Source: Acidobacteriota bacterium
GTDB taxonomy: Bacteria; Acidobacteriota; Vicinamibacteria; Vicinamibacterales; SCN-69-37
Assembly (NCBI GenBank): GCA_020853395.1
Contig: JADYYY010000011.1
Coordinates: 248,001 to 312,000, forward strand
DNA: 64,000 nucleotides
Direction: 5' to 3'
Part shown: positions 5,084-42,303 of the stretch, piece after piece
Position numbering within the stretch: the stretch's first letter is position 1
Layout of the letters: every line of letters begins with the position of its first letter
Program-made: the position numbers and the translations under genes
Notes under the pieces: model-generated
Database searches by the model: none
The model's input: the letters and a program-made list of their open reading frames with translations, nothing else
What the model was told of the DNA's origin: nothing

Positions 5084-7807
5084 ATGGCAGCGAAGCGCAC
5101 CATGCCGGGCTGGGTGCTCGGCGCGGTTTCGGCGGCAGCATTCGTAGTCGGCACGTCGGCGCAGGGCCCGACCGTCGGATCGCAGGGCGTCGTCACGCCA
5201 AGCGATCCCATCTTCGCGGTGCAGGATCCGTCTCCGGCACCGTCACCGGCGCCCGCCGAGCCGGCGCCGGCCGGCCAGGACAACTCGTCCGCGCAAGCGC
5301 CAGCCACGCCGCCAGGCGGCCGCGGAGGACGCGGCGGCGGACCGCGTCCCTTCAACCAGGTCATCACGAGCGAGGCGCGGACCGACGACGGGATCTTCAA
5401 GGTGCATCGCGTGGGCGACACCGTCTACTACGAGATTCCCAAGAGCGAGCTCGGCAAGGACTTCCTCTGGGTCACGCAGATCAAGAAGACGACGCTCGGC
5501 GCGGGGTACGGCGGCCAGGTCATCGACGACCACGTCGTCCGCTGGGAACAGCACGGCAACCGCGTGTTCCTCAAGCTCGTGCACTACGACGTCGTGGCCG
5601 ATCCGGCGAAGCCGATCGCACAGGCGGTCGCCGACGCGAACAACCCGGCGATCCTGCGCGCGTTCAACGTCGCGGCGATCAGCCCGATCGGCAACCTCGT
5701 GATCGACGTCACGTCGCTCTTCACCGCCGAGCTGATGGAGTTCTCGCCGCGGCAGGCGCTCGGCGCACGCGGCATGGATCCGAGCCGCACCTACATCGAG
5801 AAGGTCGTGTCGTTCCCGCAGAACATCAACGTGCAGGTCACGCAGACCTACACCGGCATCACCGACGGGGGCGGGCGCGGCGGGCCGGGCACGAGCGGCA
5901 CGATCGTGCTGTTCCACAGCATGGTCAAGCTGCCGGAAACGCCGATGACGCCGCGGCTGTTCGATCAGCGCATCGGCTACTTCACCACGGGCACCTTCGA
6001 CTTCGGACGGGAAGAGAACAAGGTCGCGGAGCGCGAGTTCCTGTTGCGCTACCGGCTTGAGAAGAAGGACCCGACGGCCGCGATCTCCGAGCCCGTGAAG
6101 CCGATCGTCTACTACGTCGATCCGGCGACGCCCGCGCGGTTCGTGCCGTGGATCAAGAAGGCCATCGAGGACTGGAACCCGGCGTTCGAGGCCGCGGGCT
6201 TCGAGCACGCCGTCGTCGCGAAGGAGGCGCCGTCGAAGACGGAGGACCCCGATTGGGATCCGGAGGACGTGCGCTACTCGGTGATCCGCTGGCTGCCGTC
6301 GACGATCGAGAACGCGTCGGGGCCGAACATCCACGATCCGCGCAGCGGTGAGATCCTCGAAGCCGACATCCAGCTCTACCACAACGTGCTGAACCTCGCG
6401 TCGATGTGGTACTTCACGCAGGTCGGCCCGCTCGACCCGCGCGCGACGTCGCTGCCGCTGCCCGACGATCTGATGGGCCGGCTGGTGGAGTTCGTCGTCG
6501 CGCACGAGCTGGGGCACACGCTCGGCCTGCGGCACAACATGAAGGCCAGCTCGCTCTACTCGCTGGCGCAGGTCCGCGACAAGAACTGGGTGAAGGAGAA
6601 CGGTCACACGCCCAGCATCATGGATTACGCGCGCTTCAACTACGTCGCGCAGCCGGAGGACGGCATCGCCGTCGACGATCTGATCCCGAAGATCGGACCG
6701 TACGACCGGTGGGCGATCGCCTGGGGTTACAAGCCGGTGCCGGGTGCGTCGATGCCCGACGACGAGAGGAAGACGCTCGACCAGTGGGCCCGCGAGCAGG
6801 ACACGACGCCGTACCTGCGATTCATGACCGGCGGCACCTCCGAGCTCGACGCGTTTCCGTTCGATCCGGGCCAGCAGCGCGAATCGGTCGGCGACGCCGA
6901 TCCGGTGCACGCCACGGAGCTCGGCCTGAAGAACCTGCAGCGCGTCGCCGACATGCTGATCCCGGCGACGACGCGGCCGGGCGAGTCGTACGACGACCTG
7001 CGCGATACTTACGGGCGGCTCGTCGCGCAGTGGCGCCTCGAGGTCGGCCACGTGGCGAACCTGATCGGCGGGGTGGAATCGCGCGAGGTCTATCCGGGGC
7101 AGACCGGCGCCCGCTACACCATCGTGCCGCGCGCCCGGCAAGCCGACGCGCTACAGTTTCTGCTGAAGAACGTCTTTCGCGCGCCCGCCTTCCTGACCAG
7201 CCGCGAGATCCTCGCGCGGATCGAGCCGGTCGGCACGGTCGCCCGCGTTCGCACGGCGCAGACGTCGCTGCTCAACGCGCTGCTCCAAGTACCGCGCCTC
7301 GACCGGATGGCCGAGCAGGCCACCGTCGCGCCGGGCGCGTACGCGCCGCTCCAGTTCCTGAGCGATCTGCGCAACGGCCTCTGGTCCGAGCTGCAGAACC
7401 CGGCGCAGCCGATCGACATCTACCGGCGCAACGTGCAGCGCGCCTACCTCGACACGTTCGACAACCGGCTGAACATCGGCCCGCCGCCGGTCGACGAGAT
7501 CCGCGCGATGCTGCGCGGCGAGCTGCGCGCGCTCGATGCGCAGATCGCCGCGGCGCTGCCGAGGGTGACCGACACCGCGTCGCGGCGCCACCTGCAGGAC
7601 GCGCGCGACACGATCGCGACCGTGCTCGACCCGCGGGCGATGCGCACGCGCACCACGGGCCTGGGCATCCTGTTCGGCGGCGCGAGGGGCGCCGGCGCCG
7701 CGCCTGCGGGCGCGACGCGCGCGCTGTCGAGCGCCGGCTACGACTTCGAACACGACCCGTTCCTCGAACCGTCGGCGGCGTGCTTCGTGGACTACGTCGT
7801 CAACTGA
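5084..7807 (+). CDS. exported zinc-dependent metalloprotease (DUF5117/DUF4953 type)
   Basis: A 907-residue secreted metzincin-like protease. After a signal peptide (cleavage near AQG) comes a Pro/Ala- then Gly/Arg-rich linker (residues 45-90), a DUF5117-like domain (about 95-330) and the catalytic domain. The zinc motif is H474[10 protein letters not shown]484, the full HExxHxxGxxH, with a Met-turn-like [10 protein letters not shown] about 60 residues later. The C-terminal 300 residues match the helical DUF4953 part of the family. Such proteins are common in Acidobacteriota and Bacteroidota and are exported to the periplasm or outer membrane; their natural substrates are not established. The ATG follows a GGGAG Shine-Dalgarno. 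The gene faces against its neighbours on both sides. Confidence 0.93.
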
Positions 7808-8569: not shown

Positions 8570-9249
8570 GGTCCTTTCCGCACCCACTCGAGCGCCTTGC
8601 TCAGCGGGTATCTCAGATCGAGGTGGCCGGCCAGCGTGTCCACCTGCTGGCCGTCGATGAGGATCTGCACGGCGGTCACGCTCGGCAGGTTCACCGTGAG
8701 GGCGTTGACGATCGCGTAGGCGGCCAGCGCTTCGTCGAACGATCCGCCGGTGTGGCCCGTGCGGATCGCGCCGCCGAGATCCACGTACGCGCGGCCGTCC
8801 TGCGTGAGGAACACGGTGCGGACGGTCGTGCCATCCGGAATGGCGGACCGTTGGCCGCTCGGCGGCGCCTGCACCTGCGCGACGACGATCTGTCTGGCCT
8901 GTTCCTCGGGGGTCGCACCGTAGAGCGCCGTGCCCCGCGTCGCCACGAGGCCGTAGCCGTCGTCGGCCACGTAGTACAGCGTCGCGAGAATACGCCGGCC
9001 GTCGTGGCTCGAGACCGGCGCCTCGGCCGCAGGCGCGCCGCTGGCGGCCGAGCGATGGAGCAGGGCCGGCAGCTTGGCCGTGACGAGCCAGACGCCGAGC
9101 GCGAGCACCGTCGCGCCGGCCAGGCCGGCCGCCCACAGGTGCGTCCGCGAGATCCGCACGACGGCGCGAGCCTGACCGTTCTGGCTCTCCGCGGCGGCGG
9201 TGCCGGCACGCGCGTCGTCTGGCGGATCGCCGCGGCGTACTGCCGTCAC
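8566..9249 (-). CDS. GerMN-domain protein, membrane-anchored
   Basis: A 227-residue protein with a short cytoplasmic N-terminus, a transmembrane segment (about residues 32-50, [17 protein letters not shown]) and one GerMN (sporulation/spore germination) domain, ending in [11 protein letters not shown]. The GerMN core is seen in [15 protein letters not shown] and [28 protein letters not shown]. The domain is found in GerM of Bacillus and LpqB of actinobacteria and is thought to act in the cell envelope; its biochemical role is not known. The GTG at 9249 overlaps the stop of the amidase gene (GTGA) and the stop overlaps rph (ATGA). Spore formation is not implied. Confidence 0.88.
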
Positions 9250-12070: not shown

Positions 12071-12907
12071 ATGAGCTCCGCTGTGAATCGTCGAGCCGTC
12101 CGTGTGGTGTTGGCGCTGGCCGTGCTGGCCATCTCGCCAACCAGTTCGCTCCGTGCCGCAGGGGCCGGCCCCGGCCCGGCGACGCTCTCGGGATGGCAGC
12201 GATACGTGGCGGCGACGGAGCACCGGCGACACGTGGACACCGCGCACGCCGGGTCGTTCCTCGTGATGGACGCGGAGCCAGGCGGACGGGTCGATCGGCG
12301 CGACGTCCTCGCCGGGCAGATCCTCGTGCGAGCCATGCAAACCGCCGAGGACGGCGATGGACCGGTCGAGGTCCCGGACGCGCTCGTACACCACTGGCGC
12401 GGCGCCGTGCTCGTGCCGAACGTCACGGTGCCGGATCTCATCGCGTCGATCGAGCGCGCCGATCCGCCCGTGATCCAGGACGACGTCCTCCGATCGGCGA
12501 TCCTCGAACGACGGCCCCGATCGGCGCGGGTGTTCCTGAGGCTGCGGCGCCAGAAGATCGTCACCGTCGTCTACGACACCGAGCACGACGTCACGTTCAG
12601 CCTCCTGGGCGCGACGCGCGCCTCGAGCGAGAGCCGGGCCATCGCGATCGCCGAGTTGCGTGCGCCGGGCACGCCGCAGGAGCGGCGGCTCGGCCCGGGT
12701 GAAGACCGGGGGTTTCTCTGGAAGCTGAACGCGTACTGGCGATACGAGGCGGTGCCCGGCGGCGTCATCGCCGAGTGCGAGTCGATCAGCCTGAGCCGGG
12801 ACGTGCCGTTCGGGTTGCGCACCGTGCTCGCGCCGATCGTTGCGTCGACCGCCCGTGAATCGATGTCGATGGCGCTCGTCGCGTTGCGGACGCGGTTTGC
12901 GCGCTGA
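12071..12907 (+). CDS. exported START/SRPBCC-like hypothetical protein
   Basis: A 278-residue exported protein with a signal peptide (VVLALAVLAISPTSSLRA). The body looks like a helix-grip START/SRPBCC fold: the C-terminal part YWRYEAVPGGVIAECESISLS, then a proline-containing hinge and a long C-terminal helix (TARESMSMALVALRTRF) is typical of acidobacterial members. No catalytic motif is visible; lipid or other hydrophobic ligand binding is possible but inferred. The internal ATG at 12071 was chosen because it begins the signal peptide. It ends 33 bp from the convergent kinase gene. Confidence 0.65.
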   Translation: MSSAVNRRAVRVVLALAVLAISPTSSLRAAGAGPGPATLSGWQRYVAATEHRRHVDTAHAGSFLVMDAEPGGRVDRRDVLAGQILVRAMQTAEDGDGPVEVPDALVHHWRGAVLVPNVTVPDLIASIERADPPVIQDDVLRSAILERRPRSARVFLRLRRQKIVTVVYDTEHDVTFSLLGATRASSESRAIAIAELRAPGTPQERRLGPGEDRGFLWKLNAYWRYEAVPGGVIAECESISLSRDVPFGLRTVLAPIVASTARESMSMALVALRTRFAR

Positions 12908-12940
12908 ACCGTGCCGCGCGCACCTCGGCGCTCGTCCGTC

Positions 12941-14476
<1,536 letters not shown>

Positions 14477-36878: not shown

Positions 36879-37234
36879 GGGGGCGAAAGGCTTCGACGGG
36901 GGCAAGGGGCCGCGGGATGCATGCCGAGCTCGTCCATCTCGCTCGTTAAACCGGTGGGCAACCAACGTAACTGCGGACACGCAGCTTGCGCTCGCGGCCT
37001 AACTAGGTACGCGACGTTCGCCTCTTTCAGCCGACGGATTGAGAGCGAACGCCATTTAGTCGGCTGGTCCCCGCACGCGCCTGGCGTCGCGCGGGACGAG
37101 ACTCATCCGGGCTAGCGGCCGGCGCATTCGCCGTTCTTTGTTGCCGGTCGCGAACTTTCAAGAGCGGCTACGCATGTAGAGTTCTGCGGCGACAGGCCTT
37201 TCGGACGCGGGTTCGACTCCCGCCGCCTCCACCA
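36879..37234 (+). ncRNA. ssrA: transfer-messenger RNA (tmRNA)
   Basis: A 356-nt tmRNA that rescues stalled ribosomes and tags the unfinished protein. The 5' end GGGGGCGAAAGG pairs with the 3' end CGCCTCC (one G-U pair), followed by an encoded CCA. GGCTTCGACGGGGGC is the standard 5' region. The T arm and acceptor read GGACGCGGGTTCGACTCCCG then CCGCCTCCACCA. The tag frame begins at the resume codon GCA (36958). Found by motif reading, not by a covariance search, but every universal part is present. Confidence 0.97.
36958..37002 (+). other. tmRNA proteolysis tag reading frame
   Basis: The frame GCA ACC AAC GTA ... GCG GCC TAA encodes the 14-residue tag ATNVTADTQLALAA. The ALAA end is the expected signal for ClpXP-type proteases. 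The choice of GCA as resume codon follows from the stop and from the usual Ala start. Confidence 0.85.
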
Positions 37235-37284
37235 CTTTTCTTCGATGACGATGGGCCTTCGGGCCCTCCGGTCCCGCCGCCTCC
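37218..37284. repeat. 13-bp direct repeat of the tmRNA 3' end (att-like)
   Basis: TCCCGCCGCCTCC occurs at 37218-37230, inside the tmRNA acceptor stem, and again at 37272-37284. A duplicated ssrA 3' end is what site-specific integration leaves behind. The short length makes chance possible in GC-rich DNA. Confidence 0.45.
37253..37266 (+). terminator. UUCG hairpin after ssrA
   Basis: GGGCC-TTCG-GGCCC, a 5-bp stem closed by a stable UUCG tetraloop, 18 bp after the tmRNA 3' end. No U-run follows. Confidence 0.5.
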
Positions 37285-37308
37285 TCTATCTCTCCACGGC
37301 GGCGGACG

Positions 37309-37593
37309 TCATTTCTGTTCCTGTCTCCAGCAACCTGATCGCCGCATCGATCGCGACGTGTTGACGAACTTCAGTCCTGCCTTCTTCAGTAGGAACGGCT
37401 CGGGATTGACGCCGGCCTTCTCCCGAAGCGCGAGTCCTGCCATGACGGCCTTCTTCGTCGGCGCCAGCACGCAGTCCAGTCGTCTCAGCACCGTGAATGG
37501 CAGGATGACGCGCCCGTACTCGGACTGCTCGTGGTCGCCTCGGAGCAGGTCGGCGACAGACCAGATGAACGAGGAGAGGTTGATATCGGTCAT
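37309..37593 (-). pseudogene. hsdM: type I restriction-modification methylase HsdM, N-terminal remnant
   Basis: The first ~80 codons read as the N-terminal helical domain of HsdM (LSSFIWSVADLLRGD, YGRVILPFTVLRRLDCVL, LKKAGLKFVNTS). A complete HsdM has about 500 residues, with the methylase NPPF motif. Here homology stops near 37350 and the last codons are unrelated sequence up to a stop. No HsdR or HsdS gene follows. The ATG directly follows the hipA stop, as if the two once formed one transcript. It is non-functional. Confidence 0.8.
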
Positions 37594-38573
37594 CTACGTC
37601 GTGAGCGTCCTCGCGATCCGTTCGGCCCGGGAAGCGATGAGCGCGGCGTATGCCCTCAAGGCTGACGCGTCCAGGCCGGCCAGCGGTGTTCCGTCGGCGG
37701 TCGAAGGCACCTGAGCCGTCACGGCGTCGGAGAGTTCCCTCACTCGCCGACGAACGAATGAGGCCACCAGGCCGATGTCCTCCGCGAACGCCGTCCACGT
37801 GGTAGGCCCGATCTCCTCAATCGTCGCCCGCTTGGCGATCTTCATGGCGAGATTCGGTGACAGATCCGGGTAGGCGACAGTCGAGAGGAGGTCGTAGAAC
37901 GGGGCAAGGCTCACGCCGGCGGACTGGTACAGCAGGCTGAAGTTCTTGCCATGCGCGTCGGCAACCCTACCGCTGCGGCCAGGGTCATCGCCAGCGCCTC
38001 GTTCTCCGTGGTGTGCGGGAACCGCTCGATGGCTGGCTTCAGAATGTGCGTCGTCGGCTGTCCCGGGGCGGGTAGCGCCACGCGGTCGTTGACCAGCACG
38101 ACGGGCAACTTGGTCTGAGCACCAGCGAGGGAGAGCCGCAGCCCCTCGCGGCCGGCAAGCAGCGGGCGCTTCGGGAGCGTGTCCAGCACGTCGACCAGTT
38201 CCTCGTCGCTGAGTGGGCGCGGCGTGCCCGTCGGTTCCGGTGCTGGCGGCACCTCGCCTTCGGGCCAGAGAGACAGGGCGCCCGCGACATCGCCTCCGAG
38301 CGCTTCGAGGAACGCGAAGTCGTTGCCCTTGGAGATGCCGAGGGCTCCGGCGATCACGTCGCGCTGCGCCTCCTCCGGTAGGAGGCCCGCGAAGAACGGG
38401 CGGGACTGGCGCTGCGTGAAGGGCTGCTCCTGCTTGGGCAGCGAGAACGAGATCGCAGGCCGCGACGCGTCAGCCAGCCAGTCGGCCGCGTAGGTGAACC
38501 GCATCTGACCATGCTGGTTCATCTGCAGCGTGCCAACGACCACGCCGTCCCACCAGACGGATAGCCTCCGCAT
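37594..38573 (-). pseudogene. hipA: HipA-type kinase toxin, internal deletion and frame break
   Basis: HipA phosphorylates a tRNA synthetase to cause growth arrest. The N-terminal half is intact (LSVWWDGVVVGTLQMNQHGQMRFTYA broken across the fold; RPFFAGLLPE, LSLAGAQTKLPVVL, HILKPAIERFPHTTENEA). Near 37970 the frame jumps from LAMTLAAAVGL straight to VADAHGKNFSLLYQ, which carries the catalytic Asp and His, in another frame, and continues SLAPFYDLLSTVAYPDLSPNLAMKIA. About 80 codons, including the ATP-binding and activation-loop part, are missing, so the toxin is dead. The ATG overlaps the restored hipB stop (TGATG). Confidence 0.85.
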
Positions 38574-38798
38574 CAAACGTCACGTCCAGCCGGTACGGGC
38601 GGCGACGTGATCTCCAGACGACAGCCAAGCGCGCTCAGGACGGCAAGCACCAATGTCGAGGCGCACGGTAGGCTTCCCGCGCTCCAGTTCGACCAGGAAG
38701 CGCAGACCGACACCGGCAGCCGCAGCCAGCTGATCCTGGCGCAGGCCCTGCGCTAGGCGGACGTGCCGCACGACGATGGCGATCTCATCAATGGTCAC
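38573..38798 (-). pseudogene. hipB: HipB-type HTH antitoxin/repressor, frameshifted
   Basis: A Xre-type helix-turn-helix protein (VRLAQGLRQDQLAAAAGVGLRFLVELERGKPTVRLD), starting at a GTG at 38798. Near 38660 the frame breaks: read in the next frame the sequence continues LVLAVLSALGCRLEIT and PPVPAGRDV to a stop that overlaps the hipA start, exactly as in intact hipBA operons. A 1-2 base indel therefore explains the defect. The HTH half is intact and might still bind DNA. Three palindromes just upstream are the likely binding sites. Confidence 0.8.
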
Positions 38799-39558: not shown

Positions 39559-42303
39559 GTGCGAGTCTTCCTTCCACTCATTTCCGCCTGTCGCCACGCC
39601 GCCGTTGCGGCTGGTCTCATCGTGTTCGCCTCCGCCCCCGGGTGGGCTCAGACCGGCGCCGGCATGCCGGATCACGTCGGCGTCGTGCTGGTGGCGCATG
39701 GCGCCGATCGCGCGTGGAATGCACCAGTTCACCAACTGGCGGCGCGCTTGCGCGCGACGCTTCCGGTTGAAGTGACCTTCCTGATGGGCGAAGAGGGCCG
39801 GGATGCGCGCGAGGCCTATGCCCGCCTGGTTCAGGCCGGAGTTCGTCGCGTTGTCGTCGTGCCGCTGCTGGTTTCGTCGCACAGCGCGCACGCCGAGCAG
39901 GTGCGCTTCATCGGCGGCCTGCGTGACGACTACCCGCACGCTGATCACATGACACTCCATCAGATCAAAGGCGACGTTCCCGTCGTCGGCGTGGCGTCGG
40001 CCCTCGACGATGACCCGATTCTCGGCGCGATTCTGGCGGACCGGGCGCAGGCGCTCAGCAAGGACCCGGCGAGCGAGACGCTCGTGCTCGTCGCGCACGG
40101 CCCCAACGAAGACCGCGAGGCGTCGCAGTGGCTCGACGCCATGCAGTCGCTGGCGCGCCAAATCGCCGCGTGCGTGCCGTTCCGCCACGTCGAGAGCCGC
40201 CTGCTGCGTGACGACGCGCCGGCGCCGGTCAAGGACAAGGCGCTGGCCGAATTGCGGGCCTCGGTCGAGGCGCACACGCAGCAGGGCCGTGTCGTCGTGG
40301 TGCCGCTCCTGCTGGGAGCCGGGCGCGTGGCGAACCAGATCCCCGATCTGCTGAAGGGTCTGCCCGTCGCCTGGTCCGGCCAGCCGATTCTGCCGGACGA
40401 TCGGATCGCCGAGTGGGTCTTGGCACAGGTGCGCGCCAAGGTCGGAGCGCAGGGCGATCGCGGGGCGTCGATTCCGCGGCGCCACGAAGAGGTGGTCGTC
40501 ACCGCCACGCGCACCGAGCAGCCCGAATCCACGGTGCCAGTGCAGACGGCCGTCATCGGACGCGACACGATCGAGGCGACCGGCGCGCGGTCGCTCGCCG
40601 ACGTGCTGTCGCGTGAGGTCGGCATCGAGGTGGTGCCGACGCTCGCGGGCGACGGCGTGCAACTGCAGGGAATCGACTCGCGCGGCGTGCTGGTGCTCGT
40701 GGATGGGCAGGAAGTGCTCGGCAAGGTCGGCGGATCGATCGACATCGCCAATCTGCTCGTCGCCGACATCGATCGGGTCGAAGTGGTGAAGGGAGCGGCG
40801 TCGGCGCTGTACGGCTCCGACGCGCTCGGCGGCGTCATCAACATCCTCACGCGCCGGGCGTCGCAGCCATTGACGTTCTCGGCCGAGCAGCGGTTCGAAT
40901 CGCTCGACGGCAGAACGACGCTGGTGTCGATGGGCACGCGGCAGGGCAGATGGAACCTCTCGGGATCGGCCAGCCGCGTCTCGCGCGACAGCTACGATCT
41001 CACGCCCGAAGAACCGAGCACCACGGGCAGCGCGTACACGAAACGGGCGGTGGGCGGCAAGGTCGCGTACGAGCGCGGCGCGACCGAGGTTTCCGTGGCG
41101 ACGCGGTACTACGGCGACGAGGCGGCCGACGTGACCGCCAGCCGCGGCGTGCTCTTCGACGACCTGGTCGAAGACACCCGTTGGCAAACGGTGGTGGAAG
41201 TCCGGACGAGGCCAGCGGCGCGCGACACGCTCGCCGTTCGCGGCCATCTGAGCCGCTACGAGCACAGCTACGACCAGCGCAATCGGCGGACGAGCACCGT
41301 GACACCCGATCTGACGCGCGAGCGGCTGGGCGAGATCGAGCTGCAGTACGACCGGACGATCGGCGCGCGACACCTGGTCACGGGCGGCGCCGAGTACGAG
41401 CGCATCGGCATGACGTCGGATCGCATCGAGCCGCACGACCGGCACCTCGACAGCGCGGTCGGGTTCGTGCAGGACCAGTGGTTCGTGCACGAACGGGTGA
41501 ACGTCGTGGCGGGACTGCGCTACGACCGGAGCGTCGCGTTCGGATCGGCGTGGAGTCCGAAAGCGGCCATGCTGGTGACGCCCGTCGAGGGCGTCCGGCT
41601 GCGCGTGTCGTACGGCGAGGGCTTCAAGGCGCCGGCGTTCAAGGATCTGTACTACCTCTACACGAATCGCACCGCCGGATACCGCATCGTCGGCAACGAA
41701 ACCCTGCGATCGGAAACGTCGCGCAGCCTCAGCGCCGGCGTCGACGTCGACACCCTCGCCGACCGCGTCAGCCTCGGCGTCACCGTGTTCCGTCATCGCA
41801 TCGACGACCTGATCGACTACGAGTTCCTCGGCTTCGATCCGTCTGTCGGCCTGACGACGCTGCGCACGTCCAACGTCGGCCGCGCCGGCACGAGCGGTGT
41901 CGACACGAACGTCACGCTTCGCCCCTCGCGCCGGGTGAGTGGGTCGCTGGGCTACTCGTATCTCGACGCCCGCGATCTGGAAGCCGACGAGCCGTTGACC
42001 GGACGTGCCCGGCACAGCGTCAAGGCGCGGGTGCGGGTGGACGTGGGCGAGCGCGGCCCGCGCCTCAGCGTGTTCGGCCGCATCAACGGGACGCGGGCGT
42101 TCGCCGACGCCGACGGAGACGGACACGTCGAGGACTACGCGCCGCGGCTGGCCTCGTGGGACGTGCGCGTCTCGCAGCGCATCGCGCAGTCGTTGGAGCT
42201 GATCGCCGGCGCCGAGAACGTGGGGAACGCGCGCGACGTGCGCTACTACCCGACCGCCGGCCGGCGGGCGTACGTCGGATTGACCATGTCGGTCTCGCGC
42301 TGA
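39559..42303 (+). CDS. CbiX/chelatase-like domain fused to TonB-dependent receptor
   Basis: A continuous 914-residue protein. Residues 1-30 are a signal peptide (AAVAAGLIVFASAPGWAQ). Residues 38-298 form two tandem lobes of the CbiX/SirB chelatase fold: lobe 1 with His47 in LVAHGAD and His108/His111 in LVSSHSAHAEQ; lobe 2 with His180 in VLVAHGPNEDR but GAGRVANQ where the second His would lie. Residues 308-430 are a TonB box (EEVVVTATRTE) and plug (SRGVLVLVDGQEVLGKVG, VEVVKGAASALYGSDALGGVINIL); about 440-914 are the beta-barrel. Chelatases put Co, Ni or Fe into tetrapyrroles; periplasmic CbiK homologues are linked to heme handling. A metal- or tetrapyrrole-uptake receptor with its own periplasmic binding or chelatase domain is the simplest reading, by inference. 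CGAAAGG precedes the GTG. Confidence 0.88.
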   Translation: MRVFLPLISACRHAAVAAGLIVFASAPGWAQTGAGMPDHVGVVLVAHGADRAWNAPVHQLAARLRATLPVEVTFLMGEEGRDAREAYARLVQAGVRRVVVVPLLVSSHSAHAEQVRFIGGLRDDYPHADHMTLHQIKGDVPVVGVASALDDDPILGAILADRAQALSKDPASETLVLVAHGPNEDREASQWLDAMQSLARQIAACVPFRHVESRLLRDDAPAPVKDKALAELRASVEAHTQQGRVVVVPLLLGAGRVANQIPDLLKGLPVAWSGQPILPDDRIAEWVLAQVRAKVGAQGDRGASIPRRHEEVVVTATRTEQPESTVPVQTAVIGRDTIEATGARSLADVLSREVGIEVVPTLAGDGVQLQGIDSRGVLVLVDGQEVLGKVGGSIDIANLLVADIDRVEVVKGAASALYGSDALGGVINILTRRASQPLTFSAEQRFESLDGRTTLVSMGTRQGRWNLSGSASRVSRDSYDLTPEEPSTTGSAYTKRAVGGKVAYERGATEVSVATRYYGDEAADVTASRGVLFDDLVEDTRWQTVVEVRTRPAARDTLAVRGHLSRYEHSYDQRNRRTSTVTPDLTRERLGEIELQYDRTIGARHLVTGGAEYERIGMTSDRIEPHDRHLDSAVGFVQDQWFVHERVNVVAGLRYDRSVAFGSAWSPKAAMLVTPVEGVRLRVSYGEGFKAPAFKDLYYLYTNRTAGYRIVGNETLRSETSRSLSAGVDVDTLADRVSLGVTVFRHRIDDLIDYEFLGFDPSVGLTTLRTSNVGRAGTSGVDTNVTLRPSRRVSGSLGYSYLDARDLEADEPLTGRARHSVKARVRVDVGERGPRLSVFGRINGTRAFADADGDGHVEDYAPRLASWDVRVSQRIAQSLELIAGAENVGNARDVRYYPTAGRRAYVGLTMSVSR

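Follow-up and report, generated by a model that had tools for sequence, protein, structure and literature searches.

The IhtA-IhtB (FetB) system of P. gingivalis combines a TonB-dependent receptor with a CbiK-like chelatase-fold heme protein, for which the removal of heme iron has been proposed (PMC10913741), and FetB is reported to insert Mn into PPIX (PMC13402209). The HmuR-HmuS system of Bacteroidota (hmuYRSTUV) likewise pairs a heme receptor with a chelatase-type enzyme, which there removes heme iron; HmuS is membrane-bound and of class I (CobN-like). In receptors of the FecA/FpvA type, too, the signal peptide and the TonB box are separated by a further domain, the small STN domain, whose signalling partner is an anti-sigma factor. 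A chelatase fold is known from the periplasm as well, in the CbiK of Desulfovibrio vulgaris, whose site is located in the C-terminal half. This CbiK (2xvx/2xvz) is free-standing and is not fused to a receptor. No published description of a chelatase-receptor fusion was found in the literature searched.

The gene described here, from a soil bacterium, joins both parts in one polypeptide. The closest arrangement described is IhtA-IhtB, and the protein would most likely act like a covalent form of that pair. Nevertheless, IhtA and IhtB are encoded by separate genes and IhtB is a lipoprotein, whereas the fused protein is a single chain with a periplasmic chelatase domain and has no Cys near its signal-peptide cleavage region. 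In addition, IhtB is remotely related in sequence to the fused domain (profile E 0.17), and the ihtCDE-like ABC genes of that system have no counterpart noticed adjoining the fused genes. The fused domain also differs from HmuS in its class II fold, and from the STN domain in being a 260-residue chelatase fold.

The window, that is, the whole stretch of DNA analysed, comprised 64,000 nt of the forward strand of contig JADYYY010000011.1 (positions 248,001 to 312,000; assembly GCA_020853395.1). The fused gene occupies 39559-42303 on the plus strand, as do all of its parts given below, and encodes 914 aa from a GTG start to a TGA stop at 42301-42303, with no internal stop in its 914 codons. A simple scan revealed neither a sigma-70-like promoter nor a terminator for it. 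The protein begins with a signal peptide (residues 1-31, 39559-39651; pLDDT <50), followed by a two-lobed CbiX/SirB (class II chelatase) domain (residues 37-298, 39667-40452), assigned by Pfam, AF2 and structural match to SirB, and by a flexible linker (residues 299-309, 40453-40485; pLDDT <50). A TonB-box-like segment, EEVVVTATR (E310-R318, 40486-40512), is kept in the fused homologues and is recognised by analogy with BtuB, whose alignment to the fused protein starts at this segment; like the signal peptide, it was picked out by eye on the basis of the sequence and an alignment of the fused homologues. The plug domain (residues 321-437, 40519-40869) and the TonB-dependent outer-membrane barrel (residues 438-914, 40870-42300; Pfam and Foldseek) complete the protein.

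All three Pfam families exceeded their curated cut-offs: CbiX in two stretches, the best at residues 47-139 (E 7.6e-14; 52.3 bits against a gathering score of 22), Plug at 324-426 (E 7e-21; 75 bits against 23.9) and TonB_dep_Rec_b-barrel at 512-888 (E 5e-39; 136 bits against 27). Plug, barrel and TonB box together identify the protein as a TonB-dependent receptor. The AF2 model of the whole protein, from an alignment of 55 sequences, had a mean pLDDT of 88.9, with values <50 confined to residues 1-34, the linker 299-309 and residues 897-899; the chelatase domain modelled separately (34 sequences) reached 95.2. The unbroken frame from signal peptide through chelatase lobes to TonB box, plug and barrel, as read in the initial annotation, is thus confirmed by ORF, Pfam and AF2. 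The motifs listed there are all present (VAHGAD at H47, LVSSHSAHAEQ at H108/H111 and VLVAHGPNEDR at H180), and the periplasmic location proposed for the domain is borne out by its position N-terminal to the TonB box.

The domain belongs to the CbiX/SirB class II chelatase superfamily by its Pfam score and its two-lobed fold, so that the original chelatase-fold call, for which structure modelling had been suggested, was correct. With VIA-align 2, the best structural match was SirB 5zt7 (Z 21.8, rmsd 2.5, 233 residues aligned), followed by the coproporphyrin ferrochelatases CpfC/HemH (about Z 20), the periplasmic Desulfovibrio CbiK (Z 18.3) and P. gingivalis FetB/IhtB (9b86; Z 17.6). The SirB/CfbA equivalog models were not reached (NF002090, 37.3 of 120 bits; NF033198, 26.9 of 120). 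The SirB/CbiX-L sirohydrochlorin chelatases have the same two-lobed fold, and the His of the lobe-1 AHG motif is in register with SirB His10; unlike SirB, the fused domain is exported, joined to a receptor, and has Met76 for Glu43 and His180 for Arg134.

SirB, a working two-lobed chelatase, holds its metal site (His10, Glu43, His76) in the N-terminal lobe only, the second-lobe equivalents being Arg134 and Leu200 (PMC11301274). In the profile alignment, His47 (39697-39699) falls on SirB His10, and Met76 (39784-39786) on Glu43 by counting along the alignment in the SirB numbering of PMC11301274. His111 (39889-39891) is the probable counterpart of SirB His76, which it meets in the sequence alignment only with a one-residue insertion. 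In lobe 2, His180 (40096-40098) lies in the AHGP motif at the position of Arg134 (PMC11301274). His47 was found in 80 of 80 rows with letters at that position and Met76 in 80 of 82 relatives; His180, Trp53, Trp191 and the RDDA motif (residues 217-220, 40207-40218) were near-invariant among the 82. His111 was present in 13 of the 82, comprising all 8 fused and 5 of 74 unfused sequences, most of the unfused having Val. From the lack of a second metal His in lobe 2, the initial annotation had concluded that binding rather than full catalysis was possible. This argument is not supported, since the SirB site sits in the N-terminal lobe and a second full site is therefore not expected in lobe 2; by analogy with SirB, the missing His is normal for the fold and no sign of lost activity. 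The more telling change, as far as the alignment shows, is the loss of the Glu ligand at Met76, the real departure from the biosynthetic chelatases. HmuS, which has a Met-rich insert, uses Met and His as ligands of the head/neck heme iron (PMC12583661), and Met76 with a His would allow a similar Met/His ligation of iron, as a parallel and not by homology.

A search for the same fusion in related genomes, as originally proposed, yielded seven further genomes, so that eight Acidobacteriota genomes including that of the window carry it, seven of them within the window's order. They represent six genera of this order in five families, plus one genome of the same phylum outside the order (G166). 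G045 (59% identity) and G047 (55%) have full-length fusions; in G018, G161, G086, G130 and G166, an open frame of >900 aa contains the fused domain. Given the same single-frame fusion in seven other genomes, chance or a frame error is excluded. Nor does the fusion represent a stop lost only here between two genes that are separate elsewhere, the contrary case raised at the outset; two-gene versions are nonetheless present in other relatives and elsewhere in the window's genome. In G051/L035, a 1186-aa open frame gave the impression of a fusion in the opposite order, with the receptor ahead of CbiX. It was rejected as an artefact of reading out of frame: the frame of the receptor shifts, and CbiX starts separately with a signal peptide of its own.

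In a maximum-likelihood tree of 82 CbiX domains, the fused ones group together in a single clade (support 100/99), which the five unfused sequences with His111 join in the 13-row set (98/94). Within the order, every copy found of the close CbiX clade, with domains 57-62% identical to that of the window, is fused. The receptors, in turn, fall in two clades: one with the window, G045, G047, G161 and L101 (0.99), and another in which G018, G086 and G130 group with the unfused receptor of the other pair of the window's genome (1.00). Barrel identity to the window was 50-55% in one receptor group and 28-29% in the other, with CbiX at 57-62% throughout; the outlier was L101 (48% and 35%). Even in the fusions with the diverged barrel, the CbiX domain was still 57-60% identical. 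One fused CbiX clade on two receptor clades indicates that the domain was either joined twice or moved onto a second receptor lineage. The second receptor type has an extra segment between CbiX and plug, CarboxypepD_reg-like by eye.

In most relatives CbiX and receptor are separate genes, with the secreted CbiX often directly behind the receptor. The neighbouring pairs that the initial annotation had suggested looking for thus proved common: a receptor followed on the same strand by a secreted CbiX gene was seen at L031, L032, L033, L034, L080, L082-L084, L094 and others, L031 (contig C19) being the unfused pair of the window's own genome. A receptor was immediately adjacent on the same strand in 29 of 73 unfused CbiX loci (26 upstream), a set thinned only of two near-copies, so that these counts are not independent. 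The farther flanks held 13 receptors in 481 kb, and from this density we estimated that chance alone would place a receptor next to about 2-4 loci, against the 29 observed. In Pyrinomonadaceae the unfused CbiX adjoins heavy-metal P-type ATPases, not receptors; at L117, L121, L129 and L130 (Pyrinomonadaceae-type), a secreted His-rich CbiX follows a YHS/HMBD heavy-metal P-type ATPase, which hints that unfused members have a role with metals. At L107 (2264-3877), L043 (6356-8122) and L093 (7824-9605), the CbiX proteins are longer (about 590-620 aa), and their CbiX lobes are duplicated or degenerate. Finally, a small protein, conserved and about 70 aa long, carries a C-x-H-G-x-x-H-L motif, has no Pfam match and is encoded directly beside fused or unfused CbiX genes (L037 8471-8689, 72 aa, downstream; L077 10490-10711; L101 10607-10819; L089 6212-6430; others). 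The 72-aa L037 protein had no match in the window's genome in a search run without a positive control.

With regard to genomic context, the window neighbours examined (a HipA-like piece, a SnoaL-like gene and a cNMP-binding/DUF1003 gene) include no iron or heme gene, and the iron reading therefore rests on relatives. Both the fused genes L036, L078 and L079 and the unfused pair L031 have a DtxR-type regulator (PF02742) and a ferritin (PF00210) alongside. L032 and other loci have PepSY_TM genes as neighbours. Upstream of the L101 fused gene, there is one exact GATAATGATAAT repeat, which forms part of a classical Fur site (0.01 expected). The shared upstream region of L078 and L079 contains a near-perfect palindrome (L078 about 7215-7234; L079 about 9212-9235, AGTGATTGACATGTCAATCACT), which is likely the operator of the adjoining DtxR-like regulator, whose gene is divergent from the fused gene; no DtxR-operator-like palindrome was found upstream of the window's fused gene. 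HmuY also adjoins unfused CbiX: in two Ignavibacteria the gene order is TBDR, HmuY (PF14064, E 3.6e-13 and 6e-11), CopD-like and secreted CbiX, the CbiX of these operons being a distant unfused form. The window's genome (99.9% complete) encodes FeoB, and neither the CobN family/HmuS (PF02514) nor heme oxygenase PF01126 was found in it. Its only CbiX proteins are the fused one and one other secreted copy, and a biosynthetic role for CbiX in this genome was rejected on that ground. Elsewhere in the window, positions 36879-38576 look like a decayed genomic island at ssrA, with a tmRNA gene (36879-37234, plus strand), a piece resembling a type I methylase N-terminus (37309-37593, minus strand, by eye) and HipA-like pieces (37594-38576, minus strand).

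A conserved leader of about 119 nt was identified upstream of the fused genes L036 (7069-7191), L038 (3052-3168), L078 (7289-7406), L079 (9042-9159) and L101 (7770-7867) and of the L031 receptor (12867-12977). It folds into a hairpin, a three-way junction closed by GUCG/CGAC, and a hairpin with an AUUGUA-type loop. Among 27 sequences, 24 of 32 pairs showed double-sided changes; none of 500 shuffles did as well, and slid controls scored far lower. The alignment had been fitted to the covariance model, which favours the structure. The covariance model detected the leader in 34 of 162 genomes of the order, including that of the window at C16:197735-197855 (L183/L215). Locus scans found none upstream of the window's fused gene or of those in G047 and G161, and the stretches scanned gave no Rfam 15 match. 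Nearly all examined genes downstream of the leader encode outer-membrane or envelope proteins: TBDRs (several with STN or CarboxypepD_reg), PepSY_TM, and a few porin-like and one multicopper-oxidase-like, the last two labels being given by eye. The leader is a candidate cis-regulatory RNA of an iron-uptake-type regulon, and it marks part of the same outer-membrane regulon.

Computational tools show the domain architecture, the fold, the conservation of the fusion, the linkage between the separate genes and, in relatives, an iron/heme context; we infer the ligand, the direction of any metal exchange, the cleft geometry and the steps of TonB entry, cleft uptake and hand-over or iron removal. With a probability of about one half, we consider the protein a TonB-dependent importer whose tethered periplasmic class II chelatase-fold domain receives an iron-tetrapyrrole (heme or heme-like) and possibly strips its iron. 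The initial annotation had suggested that such a receptor could bind, load or strip a metal-tetrapyrrole during uptake; of the possible metals, the context favours iron, in heme. The importer probably carries its own heme-iron tool, because relatives keep the fusion or the neighbouring genes beside iron/heme-uptake genes. The barrel would bind heme or a heme-like iron-porphyrin outside the cell, TonB would pull the plug, and the ligand would enter the periplasm. There the tethered domain would receive the tetrapyrrole in its interlobe cleft, in which His180 of lobe 2 may lie opposite three lobe-1 residues, His47, Met76 and His111. The domain would then hold it for hand-over or, as a reverse chelatase, remove the iron, in which case Fe(II) would pass to FeoB. 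A more specific version, which we put forward tentatively, is a transporter-enzyme with a built-in class II de-chelatase removing heme or porphyrin iron; this would be a second, independently evolved solution beside class I HmuS, with an unfused form widespread in Acidobacteriota, Bacteroidota/Ignavibacteria, Elusimicrobiota and Omnitrophota.

The alternative that best survives, although unlikely, is the handling of copper or another transition metal, in which the domain would bind free metal or a metallophore coming from the barrel and the CbiX fold would serve as a periplasmic metal chaperone. Met76 in place of the Glu ligand would suit this role, as would the His/Met-rich insert between the lobes of most unfused relatives, the position of the unfused CbiX genes of Pyrinomonadaceae, which follow YHS/HMBD P-type ATPases and lie close to an RND pump, and the CopD-like neighbour in Ignavibacteria. 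However, this insert is missing from the fused clade, which has DtxR and ferritin genes as neighbours and shares its leader with siderophore-type receptors and PepSY genes. Moreover, a Met-rich insert is found in the HmuS de-chelatases too (PMC12583661), and so it does not argue for copper alone.

The receptor half scored under every curated ligand-specific cut-off, with the B12 model first and heme receptors next (heme/hemoglobin receptor TIGR01785, 159.3 of 316.85 bits, below the subfamily cut-off), so the ligand is not readable from the barrel; the alignment of fused homologues showed no heme-ligand His in the FRAP-NPDL loop. In Foldseek, the best solved relatives of the barrel were Cir, at the top, BtuB and ChuA. 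Cir is a catecholate receptor, and STN/Plug siderophore-type receptors and PepSY_TM genes are preceded by the same leader as five fused genes, which would favour uptake of a ferric siderophore, the domain helping to strip or reduce iron or docking a periplasmic partner, with no tetrapyrrole involved. We regard this as improbable: no siderophore role is known for a porphyrin-chelatase fold, and the HmuY linkage points to heme. Import of a corrinoid (B12 or cobinamide), with the domain binding a cobalt-tetrapyrrole, appears more doubtful still. CbiX enzymes insert cobalt, BtuB is among the top folds and the B12 receptor model TIGR01779 is the best full-length profile of the receptor half (E 4.5e-60), but its 203.9 bits are far under the BtuB equivalog cut-off of 599.7, no cobalamin riboswitch was found in the six sources scanned (the window and five related loci), and iron genes, rather than btuFCD or cob genes, lie alongside. 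It is very improbable that the domain is a degenerate periplasmic spacer or signalling element without ligand chemistry, as its FecA/FpvA-like place before the TonB box and the lost Glu might suggest, given the near-invariance of His47, Met76, His180 and RDDA in 82 relatives, the constancy of CbiX where the barrel has diverged, and the lack of sigma/anti-sigma genes noted beside the fused loci.

The fusion is a natural 'Rosetta stone': it indicates that the secreted CbiX proteins, a large and uncharacterised family with kinship to cobalamin and siroheme enzymes, act together with TonB-dependent import. Should the domain bind or demetallate heme, environmental bacteria that possess neither HmuS nor heme oxygenase would have a separate route to heme iron, and the way in which IhtB/FetB-type partners act with their receptors would become testable in a single purified protein.
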